Positions 5,466 to 62,560 of a DNA stretch of 64,000 bases are shown piece by piece. The stretch's first letter is position 1. Each line of letters starts with the position of its first letter. Position numbers and translations under genes: made by a program. The stretch comes from Agelas oroides (Eukaryota > Porifera > Demospongiae > Agelasida > Agelasidae), in assembly GCA_949130485.1 (NCBI GenBank), contig OX422191.1, positions 6,511,754-6,575,753 on the forward strand, written 5' to 3'. Below the pieces are notes generated by a model that saw only the letters and a program-made list of their open reading frames with translations, did not search any database and was not told where the DNA came from.

Positions 5466-6210
5466 TTATTGACTGATGAGCTGCTCAACATCAAATACTC
5501 TCACATAAAAGAGGTGCTGTCCGTAGACATGGACCTCATTTGTTTCCTCTCCTTGTGCATCATATGCGATGACCTCACCACTCTCAATTGTCATGAAGTC
5601 CTCTGAGAATACTATTCGATAAATCCATTTTGAGTCTCCGTCCCAGTTGACAGGAGACCAGTTAATGATGCCTCTAAATGTCCGTGTCTCCATGTCATAT
5701 GAGGTGTTTGTAAAAGGTTTTCTTGCTGGTGGAGGTGACCCATCATCTAGACGCCAAAATATTGGTGCAGCACTATAAGATATGTAGCTCTCTTGCTCTG
5801 CAAAGTGGTAGCTTGCGAGACCTTCTGTACCACCTTGTATGTATATGCCACCAAAAATTGTTGTTGGCAGTTCCACTAGTTTCTGCCCACCACATGTTAT
5901 GTTGAAGGCTGAAATAGTCTCACGACAAAGAGGACATTTGGCTAACCACTGAGGTCGAGATGCCTTCAGCACATTCACAATACACTGCCTGCAAAATTTG
6001 TGTCCACAGTCTGTCTGCGCCTCAAATTTGGGCAAGTAAACTGCCAAACAAATAGCACAATTATCTCCCTCAGGGGAAGTAGAGCCTTCCCTACGCGTTT
6101 TGTCCATCACTCTTCCCCATTCCTCGCTAGTAAACATCGACCACTCAACTCTTTTTAAAATTTCGTTTTGCTTGTCGTATAATAACAAACGAATCTTATC
6201 GAGAAGATTC
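5466..6210 (-). CDS. RING-finger E3 ligase-like protein, last exon
   Basis: This minus-strand exon encodes a C3HC4 RING finger: C-A-I-C, then C-G-H, F-C-R-Q-C and C-P-L-C in order, with normal spacing. RING fingers bind E2 enzymes and pass ubiquitin to substrates, so an E3 ligase role is likely. Before the RING is a short hydrophilic helix-like stretch. After it come about 140 residues rich in aromatic and acidic residues (for example WRLDDGS and WIYRIVF) that I cannot assign to a family. The open frame runs on to 6611, but the part beyond 6210 is hairpin-element sequence. On the minus strand, text reading CCTAACAG just upstream looks like a splice acceptor, so I place the exon start at 6210. 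Upstream exons are not identified. The stop is near 5466. Confidence 0.72.
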
Positions 6211-6221
6211 CTGTTAGGTAA

Positions 6222-6272
6222 TAGCCTCGTTCCCAGGCTCTCCGCCCACGCACGTGAGCCTGGGAACGAGGC
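6222..6272. repeat. Short palindromic copy of the TAGCCTCGT MITE family
   Basis: TAGCCTCGTTCCCAGGC at 6222 pairs with GCCTGGGAACGAGGC ending at 6272, with only about 17 bases between. It looks like the two ends of the MITE family at 44919, 55964 and elsewhere with the middle missing. No target duplication is visible. It lies in the presumed intron just upstream of the RING exon. Confidence 0.75.
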
Positions 6273-6348
6273 CGCATCCGGTGGGTGGATCCGTAGGCGT
6301 GACCTAGTACCTTGTCTCGTGCTGACGTGACATGGAGAAGGGGATACA

Positions 6349-6802
6349 CCCAGAGGAGGTTGGAAGCTGGTAATTAGTGGTACGCGCGAGGTAGCAATTA
6401 TTGCTACGTGAATGACGTAATCATACGGGCTGCCATAGAGGCCCATAATGAAAGGTGAAATCGATTTACACAAACAGCTCTCGTTTGTTTGGAACGAAAC
6501 TTGCTCAGTGGATACTGCCAGGTGAACTCTAGATCGACCGCTAGCTCTTCCTGATACGCGAAGTATTTGAGTGTTTCCTTGGGAATCCCCGTGGAAGATT
6601 TTGCGCGCCATAAAATGCCATAGCTGTCGATCTAGAGCTCACCTGGCAGTATCCACTGAGCAAGTTTCGTTCCAAACAAACGAGAGCTGTTTGTGTAAAT
6701 CGATTTCACCTTTCACTATGGGCCTCTATGGCAGCCCGTATGATTACGTCATTCACTACCTCCGTGCGTACCACTAATTACCAGCTTCCAACCTCCTCTG
6801 GG
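6349..6802. mobile_element. Foldback element with about 180-bp inverted arms
   Basis: The left arm (6349 to about 6539) and right arm (about 6626-6802) are long inverted repeats sharing CCCAGAGGAGGTTGG ends and long internal stretches. The left arm has about 14 extra bases. The 85-bp spacer contains a GTTTCCTTGGGAATCCCC segment. A related but disrupted copy lies at about 35870-37690. There is no coding capacity of its own; the open frame on the minus strand across it is accidental. Confidence 0.8.
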
Positions 6803-7618
6803 ATACACCTGTACCCGGCTTGAAACGGTTACGTCATCTTATTAAACACTGTAACCCGCTGTTGTACTTTGACCTCGACTGCTGACTTTTGCTTGCTTGG
6901 CAAGGCAACTGTTCTACAGCTCTTCCTAAGGTATTCAGTAGAGATTTACAAGTGTACCATTGAATCAGAACTCATAAGTTGACATAAAACTCAGCAGGAG
7001 TCCATTTGGGTTGCATAAATAATATTATGGCCTACTCTGGTACATGTGCACATAGCTTCTGAAGTTCTTGAGACTCTCCATCCTGGGGCGACAGGCCTGT
7101 GTTTCATGATAAAGGTTTGGTTGGTGACATTGATGGGATTAACTAATTCACTCATTACTTCCTAACTTCTCAGAGATTATAAAAAATGCCCTTATGTCGA
7201 GCCATCCAGGCCCCCCAAGAATGTCTGGTGGCTCAACTCAAAATTCCTTGTCAAGAAGGTATGTCCAGCAAATTAAGAATGGAGCACAGTTCACTCTTTG
7301 TCACTATTGATTATGCACTCTTTGATTTTGTTAGCCATCTGATATTCCGGTTGGGAAGCATCCTAGTGACAAGAATATTGAATCAAACCACCAGACATCA
7401 GAGATTGTGGATAAGCGTAAATCTGGGGACTGACATCACTGTTGTTTACTGTAAACAACTGCTGGCATATAAAGTGTGTGCTGTGAGTTTCCCTGAGTCA
7501 CCGGTACCACAGGTGTATCTGAGTTACAGTTCGCTGCAATCCAGTCAATAGCTGCGCTAACTTCTTTCAATCTTGCTTTTGAAACCTTGTGTTGCACACT
7601 GTCTAACTGCACTTGACA
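6803..7618 (+). other. Mostly non-coding; two weak exon candidates
   Basis: No clear gene. Two plus-strand segments look slightly exon-like. About 7175-7259 lies between a CTTCTCAG acceptor-like and an AAG|GTATGT donor-like site and encodes a Pro/Ser/Gly-rich stretch. About 7332-7434 follows TTTTGTTAG and encodes a charged tail ending in TGA. Their reading phases do not join directly, so I do not call a gene. Confidence 0.2.
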
Positions 7619-41110: not shown

Positions 41111-41934
41111 GCTGAGTGGGAACTTGGGAACAAGGCTGATTTCAAACATACAAGTATGGTAAAGTAATCATTGGTATACTTGTGTGACACGGTCTTGGGC
41201 TTGTACTATGAGGCTGGCTGTGTATGCAGTGACACAGACAGTATCATTGAGTGAGAATTTAGCATATCAAGTGTAATAGAATCAAGTATAAGCAACATAA
41301 GTAGTCAGTGGAGAAGGTAGAAATTTCATGGATAGTTTGAGTGCAAGCTCACAATGCACACAGCTAACTGTACACAGCAGGTTTGCCATGGTACTAACAA
41401 ATTATGCACACAAACACTTGAAACCTTGATCGACTTGTGTGCGACAAGAAGTTACCATGTACATGCTTTCACTGCCCAAATTTAGGCCTCATGGACTGAC
41501 TGTACTCTCACATGATCATCTTTACCAAGTATGCTGTACTCAGTCTTATATGCATGTTTTATGGAGGCTAGCTCTGTCCTGTACAGTCGATATCCCCACT
41601 CAACAACTGCCACGAATATATACCTTCATCCCGACTACTTTATCTTACTGATATTATGCTTACTTGGTCTCTTTTACCTTGATATGCTGCATACTCCCTG
41701 AATACATGCTAGTTTTTTAGTTAAATTGCTAAGAAACAGGGTTATCGCGATTGGGTCTCAATACTTTCACGTCGTTTCATGCCCCCTCACGTGATATGTG
41801 TGGGTGGAGCATGCATTGCGCATGCGTAGTGTAGTATGGCACTTGTGCGATGGTTGAGCGGTACACATTAGACGGAAAAGTGTGCATAGTCCTTCGAAAT
41901 TGCTTGTGGTGTAATGGTTAGGGCTCAGTATACA

Positions 41935-41960
41935 GGTTAGGGTTAGGGTTAGGGCTAGGG
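41935..41960 (+). repeat. Interstitial telomere-like repeat
   Basis: Three perfect TTAGGG units (41937-41954) and a fourth imperfect one. TTAGGG is the ancestral animal telomere unit. The short length and the transposon-rich surroundings suggest an internal copy, not a chromosome end. The opposite orientation, (CCCTAA)n, occurs at 53687-53704. Confidence 0.8.
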
Positions 41961-42480
41961 CCAGGAAATGGGTTTTATTCCTTCTTTTTTTTTCTGCTTT
42001 AAAAAGTGACGAACACCTTATGCGATGCCACTTGTGGCAATGTGGTGTAAGTGCGACGTAATGCGGCTTTCACCCTGCACCTGGGTCATGTGACAGGGGA
42101 TATGAAACAGCGTGAATGTAATGAGACCCGAGATAGCTATGCGGTGGGCGCCGGGCGGCACGGGGAACTCCCATGTGAGGTTTTATGACGTAACCTCATG
42201 GAGCTATGTGAACTTAGACGCTATCTTTGAACGGCGCAGTATCGCCGGCGAGGGGGTTCCATGGGTTCCATGCATACACCAGAAACGATCTCAGAAGGTC
42301 AGAAATCCTAAATTTTCCTGGGGGGGCATGGCCCTGACCCTACCCTACGCGCGCTTTAATCGCATACTGGAACCCCCCTTTTCAGAATTCTAGATCTGCC
42401 ACTGTGTAAGTTAGCCAACAAAAAACAATTATTACTGCTCACACCAGGGTTCTATCTAGAGGGGTTTTGGGGGAAGCTTC

Positions 42481-54470: not shown

Positions 54471-55328
54471 ACGATGATGCATGAATCATCTTACTAGTAC
54501 CTTAACCCTCTCTCTACGTAATTTGACTTTGTACTGACATGCAGTGGCATGCATTCGGGGAGTAGGCAGGTAAGGGAGAACAAGTAAGCAGTGTGGTAAA
54601 GTAGCCAGGGCGAAAGGTATGTTAGTGGCAGCTGTGGAGGAGGGTATGTAGTGTCGCGGTCCAGATTCCCCGTCTGCTGAGTGTCTGGTCTCTGTCTAGC
54701 TCTGAGCTGCACTGACTACCGTATTTGCTCGATCAGACGCCGCTCTCGAATCGTCGCCGCACCTCCGGACGTGCTGAACGAAATAGTCGCCGCTCTCGAA
54801 TACAAGCCGCGGCTAATATTCGAGTAGTCCTACAGCTCAGAGCTTAGTCTCGCGTATCTAGACTTTCTCGAGTGTAGCTACACGAGACTACTCAGAGCTA
54901 GATCTCTATAATTTATATAGAAAGAGGTTAATACAGTGTGACCACCTGATAGGCTTGATGCTTGAATTTGTATTTGCTTGGACAGCAAAAGTCGGGCATG
55001 ACCACATCAAGGTCACAAATATTTGTGTGCATAATTTGTTAGCATACCATAGCAAACCCACCGATGGCAGTGGGCAGTTACTGCATGCATTGTGAGGTAG
55101 CTATGTATGCAATCATGGAATATGGTACTTTCTCCACGATTACTTCTACTGCTTACCTGCATGATGTGCTGCATTCTCACTGAATGTGTCACTTCCATAC
55201 ACAACCAGCTTCATACTGCAAGCCCAAGACCATGTTACACAAGTATGCCAGTCATGCTCAAATTAGTCTTGTTCCCAGCCCCCCACCCAGCTCTCTGTTG
55301 GTCATGGAGGGCTATCTCTGAGATGTAG
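54471..55328. other. Non-coding stretch
   Basis: No gene. Repetitive CGAATCGTCGCCGC / CGAATACAAGCCGC phrases around 54737-54815 suggest transposon-derived text. Confidence 0.3.
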
Positions 55329-55334
55329 CCCCCC

Positions 55335-55365
<31 letters not shown>

Positions 55366-55371
55366 ACACAT
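55329..55371. repeat. Poly-C and (CA)n microsatellite
   Basis: A run of about 22 C is followed by about 10 CA units. A similar but shorter C/CA run is found at about 55741-55770, within the duplicated unit described next. Confidence 0.9.
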
Positions 55372-55885
55372 GCACTGCCACAAACATACCTTCCGCCCTG
55401 ACTACTTTACCACACAGCTTACATGTTCTCCTTTACCTTGATATGCTTCTACTCTCTGAATGCATGCCAGTACATGCCAGCTTGGTATCCGCTTCGGCTG
55501 GATCCCTGGCAGCTCAGCCTTAAGTACTCGAACTCAACCACTGAGTTGCCCAGTGACTCGATAGCTCAGTTGGTTAGAGCATGGCAGGCCACGGGTTTGA
55601 GTCCCTCCCTGAGTCACTGTCATTTTTCTCCCTCTTTCTTTTCCGTCACCTTTCTTTCTCTCTGACTTTGACATGGGTTAGGTCTGACTGTCAGGTCTGG
55701 AGCATGTTAATAACTGAGCATCTGCGCCTCGCGCTCGCCGCACCCCCCACCCCCCACCCCCACACACAACATACACGCACTGCCACAAACATACCTTCCG
55801 CCCTGACTACATTTACCACACTGCTTACATCTTCTTTTCCTTGATATGCTGTCTACTCTCTGAATGCATGCCAATACATGCCAGT
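55370..55885. repeat. Direct duplication of about 110 bp, 405 bp apart
   Basis: 55370-55490 and 55775-55885 share CACTGCCACAAACATACC, TTCCGCCCTGACTAC, CTTGATATGCT and CTCTCTGAATGCATGCCA in the same order. A third, more diverged copy is at about 41600-41705. A tRNA-like sequence (55555-55615) lies between the two copies. Confidence 0.82.
55555..55615 (+). pseudogene. tRNA-like sequence lacking an anticodon arm
   Basis: GACTCGA pairs with the end CTGAGTC, with GCTCAGTTGGTTAGAGC as a normal D arm and ACGGGTTTGAGTCCCTC as the T-arm/B-box. The middle is too short for an anticodon arm. Promoter boxes A and B are thus kept without a working tRNA, as expected for a SINE head or tRNA pseudogene. Confidence 0.6.
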
Positions 55886-55963
55886 ATCAGAATTCCAGCA
55901 AGTTAAAATTTAGTAGAGAGAGGGTTAAGATCTAAACATACCGCGATTACACAGTGCCCTGTG

Positions 55964-56598
55964 TAGCCTCGTACCCAGGCCGTTAATTAGGAAAAACGGC
56001 CTGGCAACTTCTCCGAGTTCAAACTGTTGACTTCCGCTGCACTGGAGTTGTCAGTACCAATCAGATTTCAGAACGCTTCACATGACAGTTGTACAGAATT
56101 TTAATTGCGTCATAAATGCATCACAGTATTAATATACCCGTCCCGTGGTACCGCTAGCGCTTGGAATGACGCTTTTGTTCGAACTCCTTCCGTTGACTTG
56201 TGTGCAACAACTACAGTGCCTGCGGACAAAACGGATTCTTTATAAAAAAGGACCAGTTCGAGAGTAGCAGTGTCAGGTACTAGTTTAGTACTTACTGTCA
56301 GTCGGACACATCGACATCGGTGAGCAAGAGCGAGTCTACTGCAAGCAGTTCGTCTACAGATGACAAGTAAGACAGTAACTATCCAATATAAGCCTGTAAC
56401 GAGTCTACTGGCAACAACAACGCGCTTGCACAATTACGAACAGTCACGTGGCTACGATTAAATATCACATGCATTATCCAATATTCATGGCTTGTATGGG
56501 TGCAGCTGTAATCTTTTTCACGTCACATCCGTATACAGTTTGAACCCGGGTAAGTTGCCAGGCCGTTTTTCCTAATTAACGGCCTGGGTACGAGGCTA
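55964..56598. mobile_element. TAGCCTCGT-family MITE with perfect 9-bp duplication
   Basis: TAGCCTCGTACCCAGGCCG (55964) mirrors the end CGGCCTGGGTACGAGGCTA (56598). The arms extend about 45 bp, including GTTAATTAGGAAAAACGG. TGCCCTGTG flanks both ends (55955-55963 and 56599-56607). The 635-bp interior encodes nothing convincing. This is the cleanest demonstration of the family's 9-bp duplication. It lies about 70 bp upstream of the decayed transposase-like gene at 56668. Confidence 0.93.
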
Positions 56599-56667
56599 TG
56601 CCCTGTGGGCACGCGCTGTCTGATGTGCTCACGTGATCTTCGCGGTCAGCATACTCATTACGTAATT

Positions 56668-58715
56668 ATGTGCGCTTCTCTGGCCCACTCTAGTCCACAA
56701 GAAAGTGAGAAGGAGAACAATGACTACATCAATGGATCAACCCAGGAAAAACCAATGGTAAGTGCTAATACATGATCATATAATAGCTTGAAATAAATCA
56801 CTGCTATTTTTTTGTATACAATCGCGACAGAAATGTCCAAAACTTTACTGGAAGCACACAGTTGGTAGTCACACAATCCAGTTTGAGAACACCCCCTTCA
56901 GCCTTGGAGAAAACAAATACTCCACTGCCAGTACGGTGTCCAGTACTACACGTCCAAATCACACACAAGTGGTAGAGTGTTCCTGCAGGGGACAAGAAAG
57001 AAAGGATGCCTTGCACACATATAGGTTGTGGTCTTCACCCCAGTACCGTGTGCAAATAACTACATCCTCTCAGAACCAGGCAAGAATGCTCTGAGAAAAC
57101 AATCTCAAGGCACTGCAAAAAGCCCTTTTTTCTAATGAAACAACAGAGGTTGTACACAAATATTTCATCAGTCTGCCTACTGAAAAGGCACACCATAAGT
57201 GCCATCCAACGAGTCATGGGTTTTGCAAAAAGAGTTCACCCAGAACTCATTGGAAAGGTTCATAAACTAGTGTCAATTGGAATAGTTGAACCTGTTGAAG
57301 TGCAACGACTGCTAAAACATCATGTGGATCACTACATGTGTGCTGGGAATGTGCCAGATCCCAATGACTAACCTTGTGTAGATGACATCAAGAACAACAT
57401 AGCTAAAGCCAAGAGGGCATTACAGTTATCTGGAGCTCAATAAATTCCACTTGGTTTACCAGAACATTATCCCAATGCGATGGTGGAGTCCGAGATATGA
57501 GAATAGGGAAACTCTATGGAGTTTCGTCTCCCAGATTCCATATTACCTCATTCTAGTCCATTGAGCTAGACCAATTCTTTTGGCCACTCAACAGACTAGT
57601 CTCATGCATTTGCCTGGCAAATGTGGACATGAACTTTGGAGTCATATCAAATTTTATGTATAATAGTATCAGTAGCATTAATTATTCTGGTATCGGGTAT
57701 AACCTGTGGACCACCCATCACTACACCTTTCCACTATATCTATATATCACAGAAGTGGGCAAGAGCTTATAGGGACAGTGTCTACCATGCTGCTGTGGAG
57801 ACAAACAATGGTGCTGAGGCAACCGACTTCTCAACTATATGTATACCTTCCCAAGTAAAGACATATGACCCTGTCCCATATAATCAGCAGCATCACTAAT
57901 CAATTTCTTCCAGCACTCCACTATAGATATGTCTTCAAAAACTTCAAGCAATCAGATATTTACAGATCATACAATCCAACAGTGGTGCCCACATATCTAC
58001 AAGGTCGCGCTATTTTACACTGTCTGCACAGACAAGCCTCAAGTAACAAATTTCTCAATCAGACATAACACAAATGAACCCTGGAAAGTTTGAAGTGAAA
58101 AGCAACAAGGGAAAGCAAACAGGGGATTTCGGAGGTGAGTCCAGTGAACCAACATGTTCATGCAAAGACTGGCAAACATACCACCTACCATGCAAGCACT
58201 TTTTTGCCATATTCTGACATCATCCAGGGTGGGGCTAGGAAAAACTACCGACTAGCCACCTACAGTCCCCTTATTTGTCACTAGACAACCAATCAATCAC
58301 CAGTTACATCAAATCAGAACAGCAACTCCCAGCAGATGATGTGCAAGTGCTGATCTGGAAACAGACCCCTCTCTATAAGTACTACCCTTGATGAAATTCC
58401 CAGAAAGGCTCGTAGTACAACAGACTTAGCATGTGTAATTTTTTTGTTCACAGTGAAAGCACCACTCTCAGAGCACTAGCTCAAGAAGTCCGAATAATTT
58501 TGAAAAGCCTTAGCTCCCTAACATACAATTGCACAGATGAATATCATGATGCTCTGTCAGATCTCAATGACAAACTACAACATCTGATGAATGATTTCAG
58601 AGCTATACTTCCTCATGAGGATGGCATTCTTCTCCGACCATACACATGTAAAAAGCTAAAACTTTCCAGACAAGAAAAGTCTTCACAAAGTATTGTCATT
58701 ACCACTACCTTCTAA
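56668..58715 (+). pseudogene. CaRF/MULE-like transposase-type gene with SWIM finger, decayed
   Basis: An ATG at 56668 opens a 30-codon exon ending at 56757 before GTAAGT. A matching acceptor (GCGACAG) ends at 56830, in phase. Exon 2 encodes C-P-K-L-Y-W and later V-H-K-Y-F-I-S-L-P-T-E-K-A-H-H, interrupted by a TGA at 57092. After a frame change, V-H-P-E-L-I-G-K-V-H and V-Q-R-L-L-K-H-H-V-D-H-Y-M (57180-57360) match the calcium-responsive-factor-like family. W-A-R-A-Y-R and N-N-G-A-E-A (about 57750), then F-L-P-A-L-H-Y-R-Y-V-F (about 57910), follow in varying frames. A SWIM zinc finger lies at about 58160-58220 (C-S-C-K-D-W, then L-P-C-K-H-F-F). A helical segment (58431-58715) ends the series. 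Too little space is left for a full MULE catalytic core between 57430 and 57740, so that part seems deleted. Confidence 0.68.
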
Positions 58716-59199
58716 CGGAGAAATTCAGAAACAGGGTTGGAAGAAAGGCACAAAACCTAAGAAAGGTAAAATGTATAGTGTATATGACATAATGTCTGAT
58801 ACTTTTGTTTGTGACATCTTCTCTGCAAATACCTGGTAGTGAAAAAGTACAGTCAAGTGAGTACTACCACATCCTTGGATCCTACTCCGTCTACTGGACA
58901 GAGAATCAACAGTACAGTGCAAGTCCCTACATGTATGTTACATAGTCATAGCCTGCGATTTATGGTCAATAACTACTTAAGTCCAGGGGCATAATCCAAG
59001 GACAAGTGTTTGCTATTTTAATCAAAAATGCCATGGCTACCATGCAATAAGTGCTACATTTTCCCATCAGTAATTTGCACTGTAAACTACATATGAAACA
59101 ATCTACAACTTTCCGTAGTTACATGACCCATGCACCTATTACTATAGAAATGACAGTGATATATGACGTTTGACTATTCATCTAACTTCACAATTTCAG

Positions 59200-59372
59200 A
59201 TCTCTGGAAAACAAAAACAAGGAAGAGGGGGTGCATGGAATGTTACGGATGCAACAGAAAAGACTGTGGATCATGCACAAACTGCAAAGATATGAAGAAG
59301 TTTGGCGGACAAGGAAAAAAGAAGCAGAAATGTATTCGCAGAGTGTGCACTGGGATGACAAATCAAGGATAA
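59200..59372 (+). pseudogene. CXXC zinc finger exon
   Basis: After an acceptor-like AATTTCAG the frame encodes a CXXC zinc finger: R-G-C-M-E-C-Y-G-C, D-C-G-S-C-T-N-C-K-D-M-K-K-F-G-G, and K-Q-K-C-I-R-R-V-C. The Cys spacing and the K-F-G-G and K-Q motifs are those of CpG-binding CXXC domains; only the first C-G-x-C has changed to C-M-E-C. A stop follows shortly (59370-59372). It lies downstream of the SWIM region and upstream of the repeat/OTU frame on the same strand, so it may be an exon of the same gene or transposon. Confidence 0.7.
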
Positions 59373-59380
59373 AACATAGG

Positions 59381-59687
59381 CAACACACAGGAAAGAAAAC
59401 AGACAGGCAACACACAGGATAAAGAATGGAGGGCAACACACAGGAAGGAGAACAGAAGGGCAATGCACAGGAAGGAGAACAGAACAGCAATGCACAGGAA
59501 GGAGAACAGAACAGCAATGCACAGGAAGGAGAACAGAACGGCAATGCACAGGAAGGAGAACAGAACAGCAATGCACAGGAAGGAGAACAGAACGGCAATG
59601 CACAGGAAGGAGAACAGAACAGCAATGCACAGGAAGGAGAACAGAACGGCAATGCACAGGAAGGAGAACAGAAGGGCAATTCACAGG
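59381..59687 (+). repeat. 27-bp tandem repeat, about 11 copies
   Basis: Units of 27 bp (GGCAATGCACAGGAAGGAG...) encode a nine-residue acidic/polar repeat of the form N-A-Q-E-G-E-Q-N-[GS]. The first units, from about 59381, are more diverged. The length is a multiple of three, so all frames stay open and give long shadow frames on the minus strand. Confidence 0.93.
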
Positions 59688-60487
59688 TACCAACACCACT
59701 ACCATTATTATTTAACTTTGTCCCACTACGAACCACACCAGAACTATATGCAGCTCTAACAGAGGCATTTCTTGACAAGTCATTAGTTTATGACCCTCAC
59801 AAAGGCATGGTTTTTGATCCCCAAGGGTCCCCAGAATATACCACTCATGTTTGCACATTTAAGCACAGTGGAAGAATGATCACTACTACAGTTCCTGATG
59901 GCAACTGTCTCTTTCATTCATTATCCAAAGCATTGCTTGGGACAGAAAAGTACCACTACCGGATAAGAACGAGACTGCTTGGGTTTGTCTATGCTAATTC
60001 AAAAATACACATACAGCAGAGGTGCCAAAGTCAGGTGGAATTTAAGTCAAAGAATACTGCCTATATATCCATGGATCATAGTGGAATTTGGGGAACAGAA
60101 ATCAAGATACTTGCTGCTGCTACTCTTCTACAAGCACCCATGTACACATACACACAAACTCAAACTCAAACTCCTATCACTATCTCTATCTCCCTTTGTC
60201 ACCTGCGCACTCATTTAACGTGCGTTACGAAACCTCATTGGCCCCACCTCTCCCTTTATGTCGGTAAACAACTCACGGCTCTGTTCCACACACAACCACT
60301 GTTCAGCACTCTACTACTAGTGTACTACTTCAGTGTAGCACCAACAATAAATTTTACTTTAAAACCCAGCCCAGCACTCGAGGTACCGGGGCACGGTCAC
60401 CTACTAGGCTTGGCATGTGAGCATGAGACCTGGGTCAACCCAACGAAATTACAGTCTTGGCCACTGTGGCCTTTCTGCTGCTTCTAG
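59426..60487 (+). CDS. Repeat-linker protein with an OTU-type protease domain
   Basis: A 353-codon frame. Residues 1 to about 85 are the nine-residue repeat, probably a flexible linker. From about residue 150 an OTU domain is visible: T-V-P-D-G-N-C-L-F-H-S-L-S-K contains the catalytic D and C pattern, followed by R-I-R-T-R-L and, near residue 220, G-I-W-G-T-E-I-K-I-L-A-A-A. OTU proteases cleave ubiquitin chains, and OTU domains also occur in DNA transposons. The C-terminal catalytic His was not found: after residue about 235 the frame enters a CACAAACT microsatellite and looks non-homologous, so an intron or decay is likely. The start is uncertain; the protein probably begins in upstream exons, perhaps with the CXXC finger. 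Confidence 0.5.
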   Translation: MEGNTQEGEQKGNAQEGEQNSNAQEGEQNSNAQEGEQNGNAQEGEQNSNAQEGEQNGNAQEGEQNSNAQEGEQNGNAQEGEQKGNSQVPTPLPLLFNFVPLRTTPELYAALTEAFLDKSLVYDPHKGMVFDPQGSPEYTTHVCTFKHSGRMITTTVPDGNCLFHSLSKALLGTEKYHYRIRTRLLGFVYANSKIHIQQRCQSQVEFKSKNTAYISMDHSGIWGTEIKILAAATLLQAPMYTYTQTQTQTPITISISLCHLRTHLTCVTKPHWPHLSLYVGKQLTALFHTQPLFSTLLLVYYFSVAPTINFTLKPSPALEVPGHGHLLGLACEHETWVNPTKLQSWPLWPFCCF

Positions 60488-60620
60488 ACACAAACTTGCT
60501 TTCATTACTCACCATTCACAGCTACTTGACACTACAGCACTCTGCTAAAATCCTTCTTTGCAGGGCCGGCAGCAATGGTACGGCAGGTGTCTGCGTGAAA
60601 TGGGGACCCCCCAATTTGGG

Positions 60621-60700
60621 GACCCCGGACCCCATATCCCTAGTGATATGGAGATGGGGGGGGGGGGCATATCACTAGGGATATGGGGCCCTGGGGTCCC
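60621..60700. repeat. Hairpin with CCCATATCCCTAGTGATATG arms
   Basis: GGACCCCATATCCCTAGTG near 60627 mirrors CACTAGGGATATGGGGCC near 60673, around a run of G. The text GGGGACCCC and GGTGATATGGGGATCC around it suggests an older repeat family. It is non-coding. Confidence 0.75.
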
Positions 60701-60875
60701 CAGAACTCTGGTGATATGGGGATCCTTCAGTGATTTAGGGACCCCTAAGGTTTGTGTTCTATACGCAATTGGAAAAGACATGTAAGAACTAATTAACAAG
60801 TTGTATATATGCAAGAGTAAAATATGCTTATGCAATAGTGTGTACAAGTAAAGAACAACAATATTAGAATATTAA

Positions 60876-62070
60876 TTAAAGAACACATTTGTTACAAAAC
60901 CACAGTTCATCTTCTGTAGGTGCTTTTGTAAGTCCCATGCACTTCAAGTGAATCCACTCTCCACATTCCTCACATTCTACCATATCACCGTAAGTCTCCG
61001 GCATGTGACATATACAAAAAAGTTCTAATGTCACATATGGGAAGACTCGTTTCGGATAGAAGCGACCTTCTTGTGTGGAAATGGTTCCATCTTCTTCTTT
61101 TGGAAGCACTTGAGAAGATGAGATCTCATCTGGGACTGCTCGAAGAGAATGTGCTGAGGATCATCCCCCCATGGCCAAATGAAGTGTGAATGCTATCGCA
61201 AACAGTCCACAGTCACAGCTTCCAAACTGCTGTTGGACAGTGGGGACATTGATCTCCAGCATTAGATCACCATCTTCGTCTGTTTGTAAGATCTGTAAAT
61301 GCATGCGAGCAAGCTAGTGAGTCAGTGAAGGGTGCAGTTTGCCACTGTATTTGCTGTCGTAAACAGTGACTTGCTGTCCAAAAGAGCTGGATGAAACCTA
61401 ATGGTTGCCCGCTACAAAATGAATCTGAAGGGCATCACGCTGTTGTGCATCATTCTCTGAGAGCAAAGTACATTGCAGACCATTGATATGGGGAAACTGG
61501 ACTCTCAGCAGGCTCTGGGCAAGATGTATATGTGAATCTGTAAGCTACTTTCCTTTTTGAATGTCTTCCTTCATCTGAGCATGCAGTAAGTGATGGAAAC
61601 TTCTGAACCCTTCTCTTTTTCCTAGGTGGCTCCTCTGCAACTTTTTTCTCTCCAGGTTTCTCCTTTTCAAGTTGCTCCTTTGCAGCTTGCTCTGCCTTCT
61701 TCTCATCTGGCCTATCTCATTGTGCATACACCTGAATGATGCATACAGTATAGTGATGTATACCAGAAAACACCTTCATGTATTCATACTATAGTTATAA
61801 TACTAGTAGTGAGTAATGAGATGAATTACCTTCAGTCGAGCAATGTTGTACTTCTTCTTGAGAAGCTTTCCACTTGAACTTTTCAGCTCATATAAACCTT
61901 TTCCAAGATACCGGTACTTCCTCCTTTCGTCGTCGTTTCCATTTCCCGTTTCCGCGTTTCCTATTTCCATTCCCATTCTGAGTGGTTATAGGAGCGTCAG
62001 AATCCGCCCTTTGTTCTGTTCCGGATGAATAGTCGACGGTGAGGCCGGCTTCACTTTGTAAGTTGTGCAC
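60876..62070 (-). pseudogene. Ginger1-like transposase tail: GPY/F-like, Ulp1 protease, PHD finger, decayed
   Basis: On the minus strand, 62070 to 61830 encodes an Asn/Arg-rich stretch and, in a shifted frame, L-G-K-G-L-Y-E-L-K-S...K-K-K-Y-N-I-A-R-L-K, like the GPY/F end of gypsy-type integrases, stopping at a GTAATT donor. A charged Lys/Glu linker follows (about 61735-61600). A C48 (Ulp1) protease comes next (about 61520-61145): the catalytic His region (H-F-V-A-G-N-H, then TAG where Trp is expected), V-T-V-Y-D-S with Asp, and V-Q-Q-Q-F-G-S-C-D-C-G-L-F with Gln and Cys. A frame change leads to a PHD finger (about 61025-60890: C-I-C, C-E-E-C, H-L-K-C, W-F-C-N-K-C). Published Ginger1 elements combine a gypsy-like integrase with Ulp1 or OTU protease domains. 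The stops and frame changes show decay. Confidence 0.62.
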
Positions 62071-62287
62071 ACGTGGTTTCTGTATAGTTAGCTAAGCTAC
62101 ATTATTAGTATAAGTAGCATGGACTGGACATAGAATGAGACAGGGCGTAGAGATGAAACATAACATTATATATAATTTATGTCCCCCCACAAAATCCGCT
62201 GTCGTGAAGTTTACCCTCGACTTTATTCCTCCCAATCTCATCTTTAATATGGACCTACGTCGAATGTGTTAGCACTCTGGCACTGTA

Positions 62288-62560
62288 GCTGGATCAAGGG
62301 GTAGTCACTGTATGTCGCCTGTTGAAGAGTTTGCGACTGGGATCAAGATTTTTGTGATTTGCAGAAGTTTTGTTCAAATCATCTACAGTGGCTCAATAGT
62401 CAAATTGGCAGCCATTCATTGTTGATCTGTTGACGTTTGCTGTTCAAAGCCCACCTTGAGCCCTTGATTGGGTCTTAAAAAGGACAATCGCTTGATTCAA
62501 TTTTGATCCCAGTCGCAAGTGCTTCAAGAGGGGACACATGTGGCTACCCCTTGAGGATGG
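62288..62560. mobile_element. MITE-like inverted repeat
   Basis: The left arm (GGATCAAGGGGTAG ... TTGCGACTGGGATCAA) pairs with the right arm (TTGATCCCAGTCGCAA ... CTACCCCTTGAGG). Arms are about 60 bp with mismatches and the spacer is about 150 bp. It is non-coding, with no clear target duplication. Confidence 0.78.

Follow-up and report, generated by a model that had tools for sequence, protein, structure and literature searches.

The window analysed here, a 64,000-nucleotide stretch of the genome of the sponge Agelas oroides, contains on its forward strand, between positions 56887 and 60193, a chain of protein modules that comparison with other copies in the same genome shows to be a dead, internally deleted copy within a diverse family of MULE DNA transposons. 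From 5' to 3', the modules are three CaRF-like pieces, the terminal part of a MULE transposase domain, a SWIM zinc finger with a conserved region beyond it, a CXXC finger and, after a tandem repeat, the front part of an OTU protease domain. This order on a single strand, already claimed in a preliminary description of the locus, was borne out by Pfam and tblastn matches and by the same order in other copies; the start of the chain at 56668 that was given there has no domain support.

Modules of the window copy

Several frame shifts and stops disrupt the gene, the pieces of which fall in all three frames. The CaRF part alone (56887-57440) is spread over three frames, with an N-terminal piece of the CaRF/ALS2CR8-like domain at 56887..57021, a middle piece in a different frame at 57095..57220 and a C-terminal piece, in the third frame and with one stop, at 57198..57440. 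Each of these pieces matches the CaRF exon of other copies in tblastn, and the matches are collinear; for the copy at locus L025, the identities are 62.8% (E-value 1.7e-14), 61.5% (9e-14) and 59.2% (6e-30), respectively. A composite assembled by eye, with X at the breaks and with the N-terminal piece included, matched PF15299 (ALS2CR8) at 1.6e-6 and 28.7 bits, the cut-off being 28.9; the frame pieces 56792-57091 and 57060-57368 taken alone had no PF15299 match in the Pfam scan. The DDE transposase domain is represented by its end, with a TNN motif (57741..57827; 84.6% identity to L025, 3e-12). The preceding DDE core is deleted: the distance from the end of the CaRF part to this motif is 300 nt in the window compared with about 1,100 nt in L025.

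The transposase remnant is followed by the region between the DDE domain and the SWIM finger (57859..58065; 77.9% identity to L025, 1e-34), the SWIM zinc finger itself (58047..58214; PF04434, 1.1e-6; 56% identity to the copy at L019) and a post-SWIM region (58416..58712; 55.9% identity to L025, 2e-21). A probable phase 1 intron of the GT...AG type (58766..59199) leads from this MULE exon to the CXXC finger exon (59200..59369), in which all eight cysteines and the KFGG motif are intact (PF02008, 1.9e-12; KDM2B, 5.8e-10; CFP1, 6.3e-10). The nine-residue repeat noted in the preliminary description is indeed present, as 11.5 copies of a 27-bp unit (59378..59687, Tandem Repeats Finder). As a conserved functional part this repeat was rejected, being absent from representatives of seven subfamilies of related copies (Tandem Repeats Finder, positions 5701-7300 of each); therefore, it seems restricted to the window copy or to relatives that were not read. 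The OTU domain (59894..60193; PF02338, 4.7e-10; OTUD1, 3.6e-4) keeps its DGNC motif and lacks the C-terminal part with the catalytic His. The SWIM, CXXC and OTU domains each score above the Pfam cut-off within one open frame, the CXXC finger in the open reading frame (ORF) 59160-59372 and the OTU domain in the ORF 59423-60487. Given that the OTU match, which starts at profile position 2, ends at 60193 (position 101 of 128), the tail of the latter frame to 60487, included in the range given in the preliminary description, is unsupported as OTU.

Related copies, their ends and the single-gene structure

A search of the genome (259,295,671 bases in 141 contigs; matches at E 0.001 or better) yielded at least 91 CXXC, at least 119 MULE and at least 79 OTU matches; these totals are lower bounds that rest on the scoring of 150 of 151 CXXC, 150 of 194 MULE and 116 of 116 OTU candidates. 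In 50 of 91 cases, the CXXC match has an OTU match within 4 kb, which in 48 cases shares its strand and lies downstream of it, compared with about 0.06 CXXC-OTU pairs expected by chance, and 23 of the 91 have, in addition to the downstream OTU domain, a MULE domain upstream on the same strand. Among the 42 MULE matches of the CaRF type, a class defined by the position where the match ends in the MULE profile, which is a proxy, a downstream partner within 10 kb was found for CXXC in 29, for OTU in 25 and for both in 24; a downstream CXXC match was found for 1 of the 77 other MULE matches. Viral contigs queried with the OTU, SWIM, CXXC and post-SWIM pieces, and bacterial and archaeal contigs queried with the CXXC and SWIM pieces, gave pattern matches and no confirmed relative. 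A phage contig encoding a SWIM protein was rejected as a relative because its ORFs show an unrelated context; no OTU match was found in plasmids, and three pieces of the window had no match in NCBIfam.

Twenty of the 23 loci with the full chain were examined over 9 kb each, and 18 of these fall in seven subfamilies (A to G) with defined ends; for the other two (L016 and L022) no end pair was defined, and they stand outside the end analysis. Thus, the chain is carried by seven subfamilies that differ in their ends. Nine of the 20 loci belong to subfamily A; in pairwise comparison their longest aligned pieces are 97.8-99.8% identical (identity is sometimes lower, down to 85.7%, in shorter second pieces near the 3' end), and near-identical copies occur on different contigs. 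The representatives of the seven subfamilies have terminal inverted repeats of 36-60 bp, at 80% identity or more, which begin with GGGA or GGGT and have TTCAC in common at positions 14-18. An exact 10-bp target duplication flanks 10 of the 16 two-ended copies (11 of 16 if the outer repeat of L015 is used), and near-exact duplications flank three others (two at 9/10, one at 8/10). At up to three mismatches, a 29-base piece of the A end has 58 forward and 59 reverse occurrences in the genome and no control matches, and the B end has 18 and 16 occurrences. Short two-ended copies of 106-476 bp were found at 11 of 30 A-end loci, five of them with exact 10-bp duplications. Comparison of the copies thus shows that relatives of the window element have moved recently, leaving 10-bp target duplications.

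The hexamer CACGTG is present within 100 bp of 10 of the 14 ends of the seven representatives, where about 0.4 would be expected from its rate in flanking DNA. A motif with an ACGT core (CACGTG or ACGTCA) lies 34-39 bp from 10 of the 14 ends, in subfamilies A, B, C, E, F and G, the ends of which otherwise differ. With a profile built from the 14 ends, no terminal repeats were recognised for the window copy, the best score for correctly oriented ends being 6.0 bits (plus strand 54500-57000 and minus strand 60000-62500) compared with 28-38 bits for known ends; a look-alike end at 60612 was rejected at -0.2 bits. Elsewhere in the window, a 377-bp non-autonomous element at 41753-42129 has the subfamily G ends found in L025, with no target duplication seen around it, and further end-like pieces are located at 42225 and 23692.

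In the window copy, the MULE and CXXC parts can be joined with the donor GT at 58766 and the acceptor AG at 59198-59199, the phase being 1 on either side. A candidate phase-1 acceptor was found 17-32 nt upstream of the first CXXC cysteine in the window and in six subfamilies (A, B, C, D, F and G), which together made up this comparison; the 15 bases before it hold 8 to 13 pyrimidines, and there are further AGs nearby. According to the ORF list, the CXXC frame of the window copy, past one stop, runs on into the first two repeat units, and a 1-nt difference shifts the remaining repeat units and the OTU domain into another frame. In the copy at L018, CXXC and OTU are found within a single open frame of 231 amino acids. 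The same order and orientation recur in other copies, enclosed by one pair of terminal repeats. These data show that the chain is a single gene of several exons, in which CaRF-like, DDE, SWIM, CXXC and OTU modules lie within one terminal-repeat pair; we regard this architecture, taken on its own, as nearly certain, and here the single-gene reading of the preliminary description holds.

The predicted activities of this protein can be assessed from conserved residues. Among ten exons from four copies, the transposase exons match PF15299, PF10551 and PF21056, and no integrase family, such as the Gypsy-type domain of Ginger1, was matched at E-values up to 0.1. The MULE DDE domain (PF10551) was matched in L015, L023 and L025, with alignable motifs; of its residues, two Asp and a CxxH motif were checked, the third acidic residue lying outside the comparison, and they are kept in five of the six aligned subfamilies, namely those with the exon read through (in D it is cut short). 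The SWIM finger (PF04434) scores above the cut-off in the window and in L018 and below it in L015 (16.8 vs 19.6 bits). The DGNC motif with the OTU Cys is present in all six aligned subfamilies and the catalytic His in five of them (A, B, C, E and F); subfamily G, which has a stop within OTU, was left out of this alignment. With both catalytic residues, the OTU domain of the relatives is a predicted deubiquitinase. Among solved structures, the window copy is nearest to OTUD1 and L015 to OTUD5.

The CXXC motif reads KFGG, RFGG, CFGG, KYGG or KFSG in the representatives. Fingers of the KFGG type bind unmethylated CpG, and the window finger is of the kind predicted to do so. Similar fingers are found in the host proteins KDM2A/B, CFP1, FBXL19, KMT2A/B and DNMT1 (E down to 5.8e-10), with those of KDM2B, CFP1 and FBXL19 closest to the window finger, but these host proteins are chromatin proteins without a transposase.

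CpG-rich insertion sites and a possible role of the CXXC finger

Outside the 18 copies with defined ends (34 flanks), the ratio of observed to expected CpG is 1.18 in the first 100 bp and then 0.89, 0.58, 0.54 and, by 1-2 kb, 0.49; the background of the window is 0.42 (100-bp pieces). At the 30 A-end loci, the ratio likewise falls outward from 1.16 to 0.88, 0.74, 0.68 and 0.52. For the comparison of near and far DNA, nine A-end loci that are second views of copies among the 18 were removed, and the 66 flanks were reduced to 52 by dropping 13 that are shorter than 1.2 kb and the right flank of L021, which is 98.9% identical, in inverted orientation and over 1,000 bp, to the left flank of L013. 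The elements at these two loci differ in subfamily and contig, and their flanks represent either a shared target or a duplicated stretch. The number of CpG per 100 bp is 6.9 beside the element compared with 2.8 at 0.7-1.2 kb, and CpG content at 0-100 bp exceeds that at 700-1200 bp in 46 of the 52 flanks; counted by locus, the same holds for 35 of 39 (p 7e-8). The figure of 39 is one too many, as L048 and L049 appear to be the opposite ends of a single element. A control that is not specific to MULEs, and in which target duplications were left unchecked, comprised 91 boundaries of other repeats located in these stretches of DNA; their mean ratio is 0.58. Within the elements, the ratio is 1.10 in the terminal 100 bp and 0.33 in the core.

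The explanation of these observations that we favour is that the CXXC finger would guide the complex of transposase and DNA to CpG-rich unmethylated DNA, to CpGs within the element's own ends, or to both; insertions would thereby land in CpG-rich spots that permit expression of the element. More speculatively still, the OTU protease might strip ubiquitin from a chromatin or repair protein at the insertion site. CXXC-guided insertion into unmethylated CpG DNA would account for both the presence of the finger and the CpG-rich sites, and we consider the architecture together with such targeting to have an even chance of being correct. The CpG-rich insertion sites are also consistent with the earlier suggestion that the element targets or escapes methylated DNA, in which the causal role of the CXXC finger would be putative.

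Several points weigh against CXXC-guided targeting and the gene model behind it. The comparison of insertion sites is limited to CXXC-bearing MULEs and the boundaries of other repeats, CpG richness serves as a proxy for the methylation state, and the gene structure is known here from DNA sequence alone. Two copies, L021 and L026, have no target duplication. The modules do recur together in the 48 CXXC-OTU pairs and the 23 chains with a MULE domain, but for 13 of the 42 MULE matches of the CaRF type no CXXC match lies in the 10 kb downstream. These 13 correspond in part to the copies ending without CXXC and OTU that the preliminary description named as a refutation, and they may be decayed copies or a sister family. 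Likewise, 43 of the 91 CXXC matches have no downstream OTU, and some of these must be host genes or decayed copies. Furthermore, a CpG preference need not stem from the CXXC finger because maize Mu also avoids methylated DNA (PMC2774946), and a 2019 survey of MULEs names CXXC for none of them (PMC6446971).

The main alternative, to which we assign an appreciable, though lower, probability, retains the same single-gene transposon and attributes the CpG-rich sites to a preference, common to MULEs, for promoter DNA that is open and hypomethylated, with the CXXC finger serving another step such as binding to CpGs in the terminal repeats. Insertions of maize Mu are about 5-fold lower in methylated and about 5-fold higher in hypomethylated single-copy regions (PMC2774946), and binding of the ends by CXXC would suit both the CpG-rich element ends and the ACGT-core motif near them. 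The boundaries of other repeats are not CpG-rich, which speaks against a general preference, though these repeats are not shown to be MULEs and the comparison is not decisive. Maize Mu resembles the present element in its insertion into hypomethylated DNA (PMC2774946) and in having a target duplication, of 9 bp. It differs in being a plant element. To our knowledge, no CXXC finger is associated with it.

A quite unlikely possibility is that CXXC and OTU form an anti-silencing module that protects the CpG-rich ends from methylation or from repression based on ubiquitin, without any part in target choice. The contrast between CpG-rich ends and a CpG-poor core, and the similarity of the window CXXC to the KDM2B and CFP1 fingers and of the OTU domain to OTUD1 and OTUD5, would fit such a function, which alone, however, does not predict CpG-rich flanks. 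That a MULE and a CXXC-OTU gene decayed side by side by chance, the alternative raised in the preliminary description, is highly improbable: the modules do lie in different frames, and among the 20 loci the MULE part of the window is nearest to L025 and its CXXC finger to L019 and L023, but the two parts share a phase-1 join, the CXXC frame continues into the repeat, and in other copies the whole chain, in the same order, is enclosed by one repeat pair with target duplications. In the window, neither half was found to have enclosing repeats of its own; the copies were not searched exhaustively for such repeats. Hardly more credible is a host gene domesticated from a MULE, which would fit the occurrence of CaRF and CXXC as domains of host proteins and is contradicted by the presence of multiple copies, by their terminal repeats and target duplications, by the short non-autonomous derivatives and by near-identical copies across contigs.

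The present transposon can be compared with several known systems. Animal elements of the MULE/Mutator superfamily likewise have the MULE DDE domain, SWIM, terminal repeats and target duplications of similar length, whereas the present element joins CaRF, CXXC and OTU in one gene; the fingers named in the 2019 survey are SWIM, FLYWCH, C2H2, CCHC, PHD and RING, and its main text lacks the word CXXC (PMC6446971). For the cnidarian MULE MuDR-6_HM, which can be compared by description only, Table 1 of that survey gives an ovarian-tumour gene motif, as in the present OTU, and no zinc finger type (PMC6446971). Ginger1 transposases have a C-terminal OTU or Ulp1 protease, in one case with a PHD finger, for which (OTU and Ulp1) the authors proposed repair-related roles; Ginger1 differs in its integrase-type transposase, and the text has no occurrence of CXXC (PMC2836005). 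The main text of a 2026 arthropod survey includes neither OTU nor CXXC (PMC13359780), and in two other transposon papers the word denotes a cysteine motif, not the CpG-binding finger (PMC1636069, PMC10711439). Among the matches listed in our literature search, which did not extend to Repbase, most subscription journals or NCBI proteins, none described a transposase with a CXXC finger of the CpG-binding kind, and prior annotation is possible.

If the CXXC finger directs insertion, this would be a eukaryotic transposon in which the absence of DNA methylation is read by the kind of module that the host uses at CpG islands and in which this reading is coupled to a deubiquitinase. Such a natural fusion would lend itself to the study of integration-site choice by chromatin readers and would explain the 48 CXXC-OTU pairs in one genome, which annotation could take for host epigenetic genes. 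The younger relatives in CpG-rich DNA make it testable whether a transposon steers itself by a sensor of DNA methylation. CXXC-guided Polycomb complexes (KDM2B-PRC1) place the ubiquitin mark on H2A at CpG islands. A bolder and rather doubtful scenario is a transposon lineage with a built-in methylation sensor, in which CXXC would steer integration into unmethylated CpG islands and OTU would clear ubiquitin there, possibly the Polycomb mark on H2A, such that new copies land in a permissive state and keep it.

Neighbouring features of the window

At 55557-55615, a tRNA-like sequence (gatagctcagttggttagagc...), not called by ARAGORN, adjoins repeated stretches and is perhaps the head of a short interspersed nuclear element (SINE). 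Beside the 5' side of the relic, at 55962-56598, there is a short inverted-repeat element with 64-bp arms that are 95% alike and an apparent 9-bp flanking duplication, TGCCCTGTG, identified by eye; a piece of its end occurs 136 and 146 times in the genome. Directly after the relic, at 60618-60700, lies an imperfect inverted repeat with GGGGACCCC-rich arms that are 88% alike. Further downstream, on the minus strand, a PHD finger (60876-61160; PF00628, 4.5e-10) is preceded by a broken remnant of an Ulp1/C48-like peptidase at about 61140-61240, a piece delineated by eye with a match of 0.0046, below the cut-off. This combination suggests a chromatin reader together with a ubiquitin-like protease, in parallel to CXXC and OTU.

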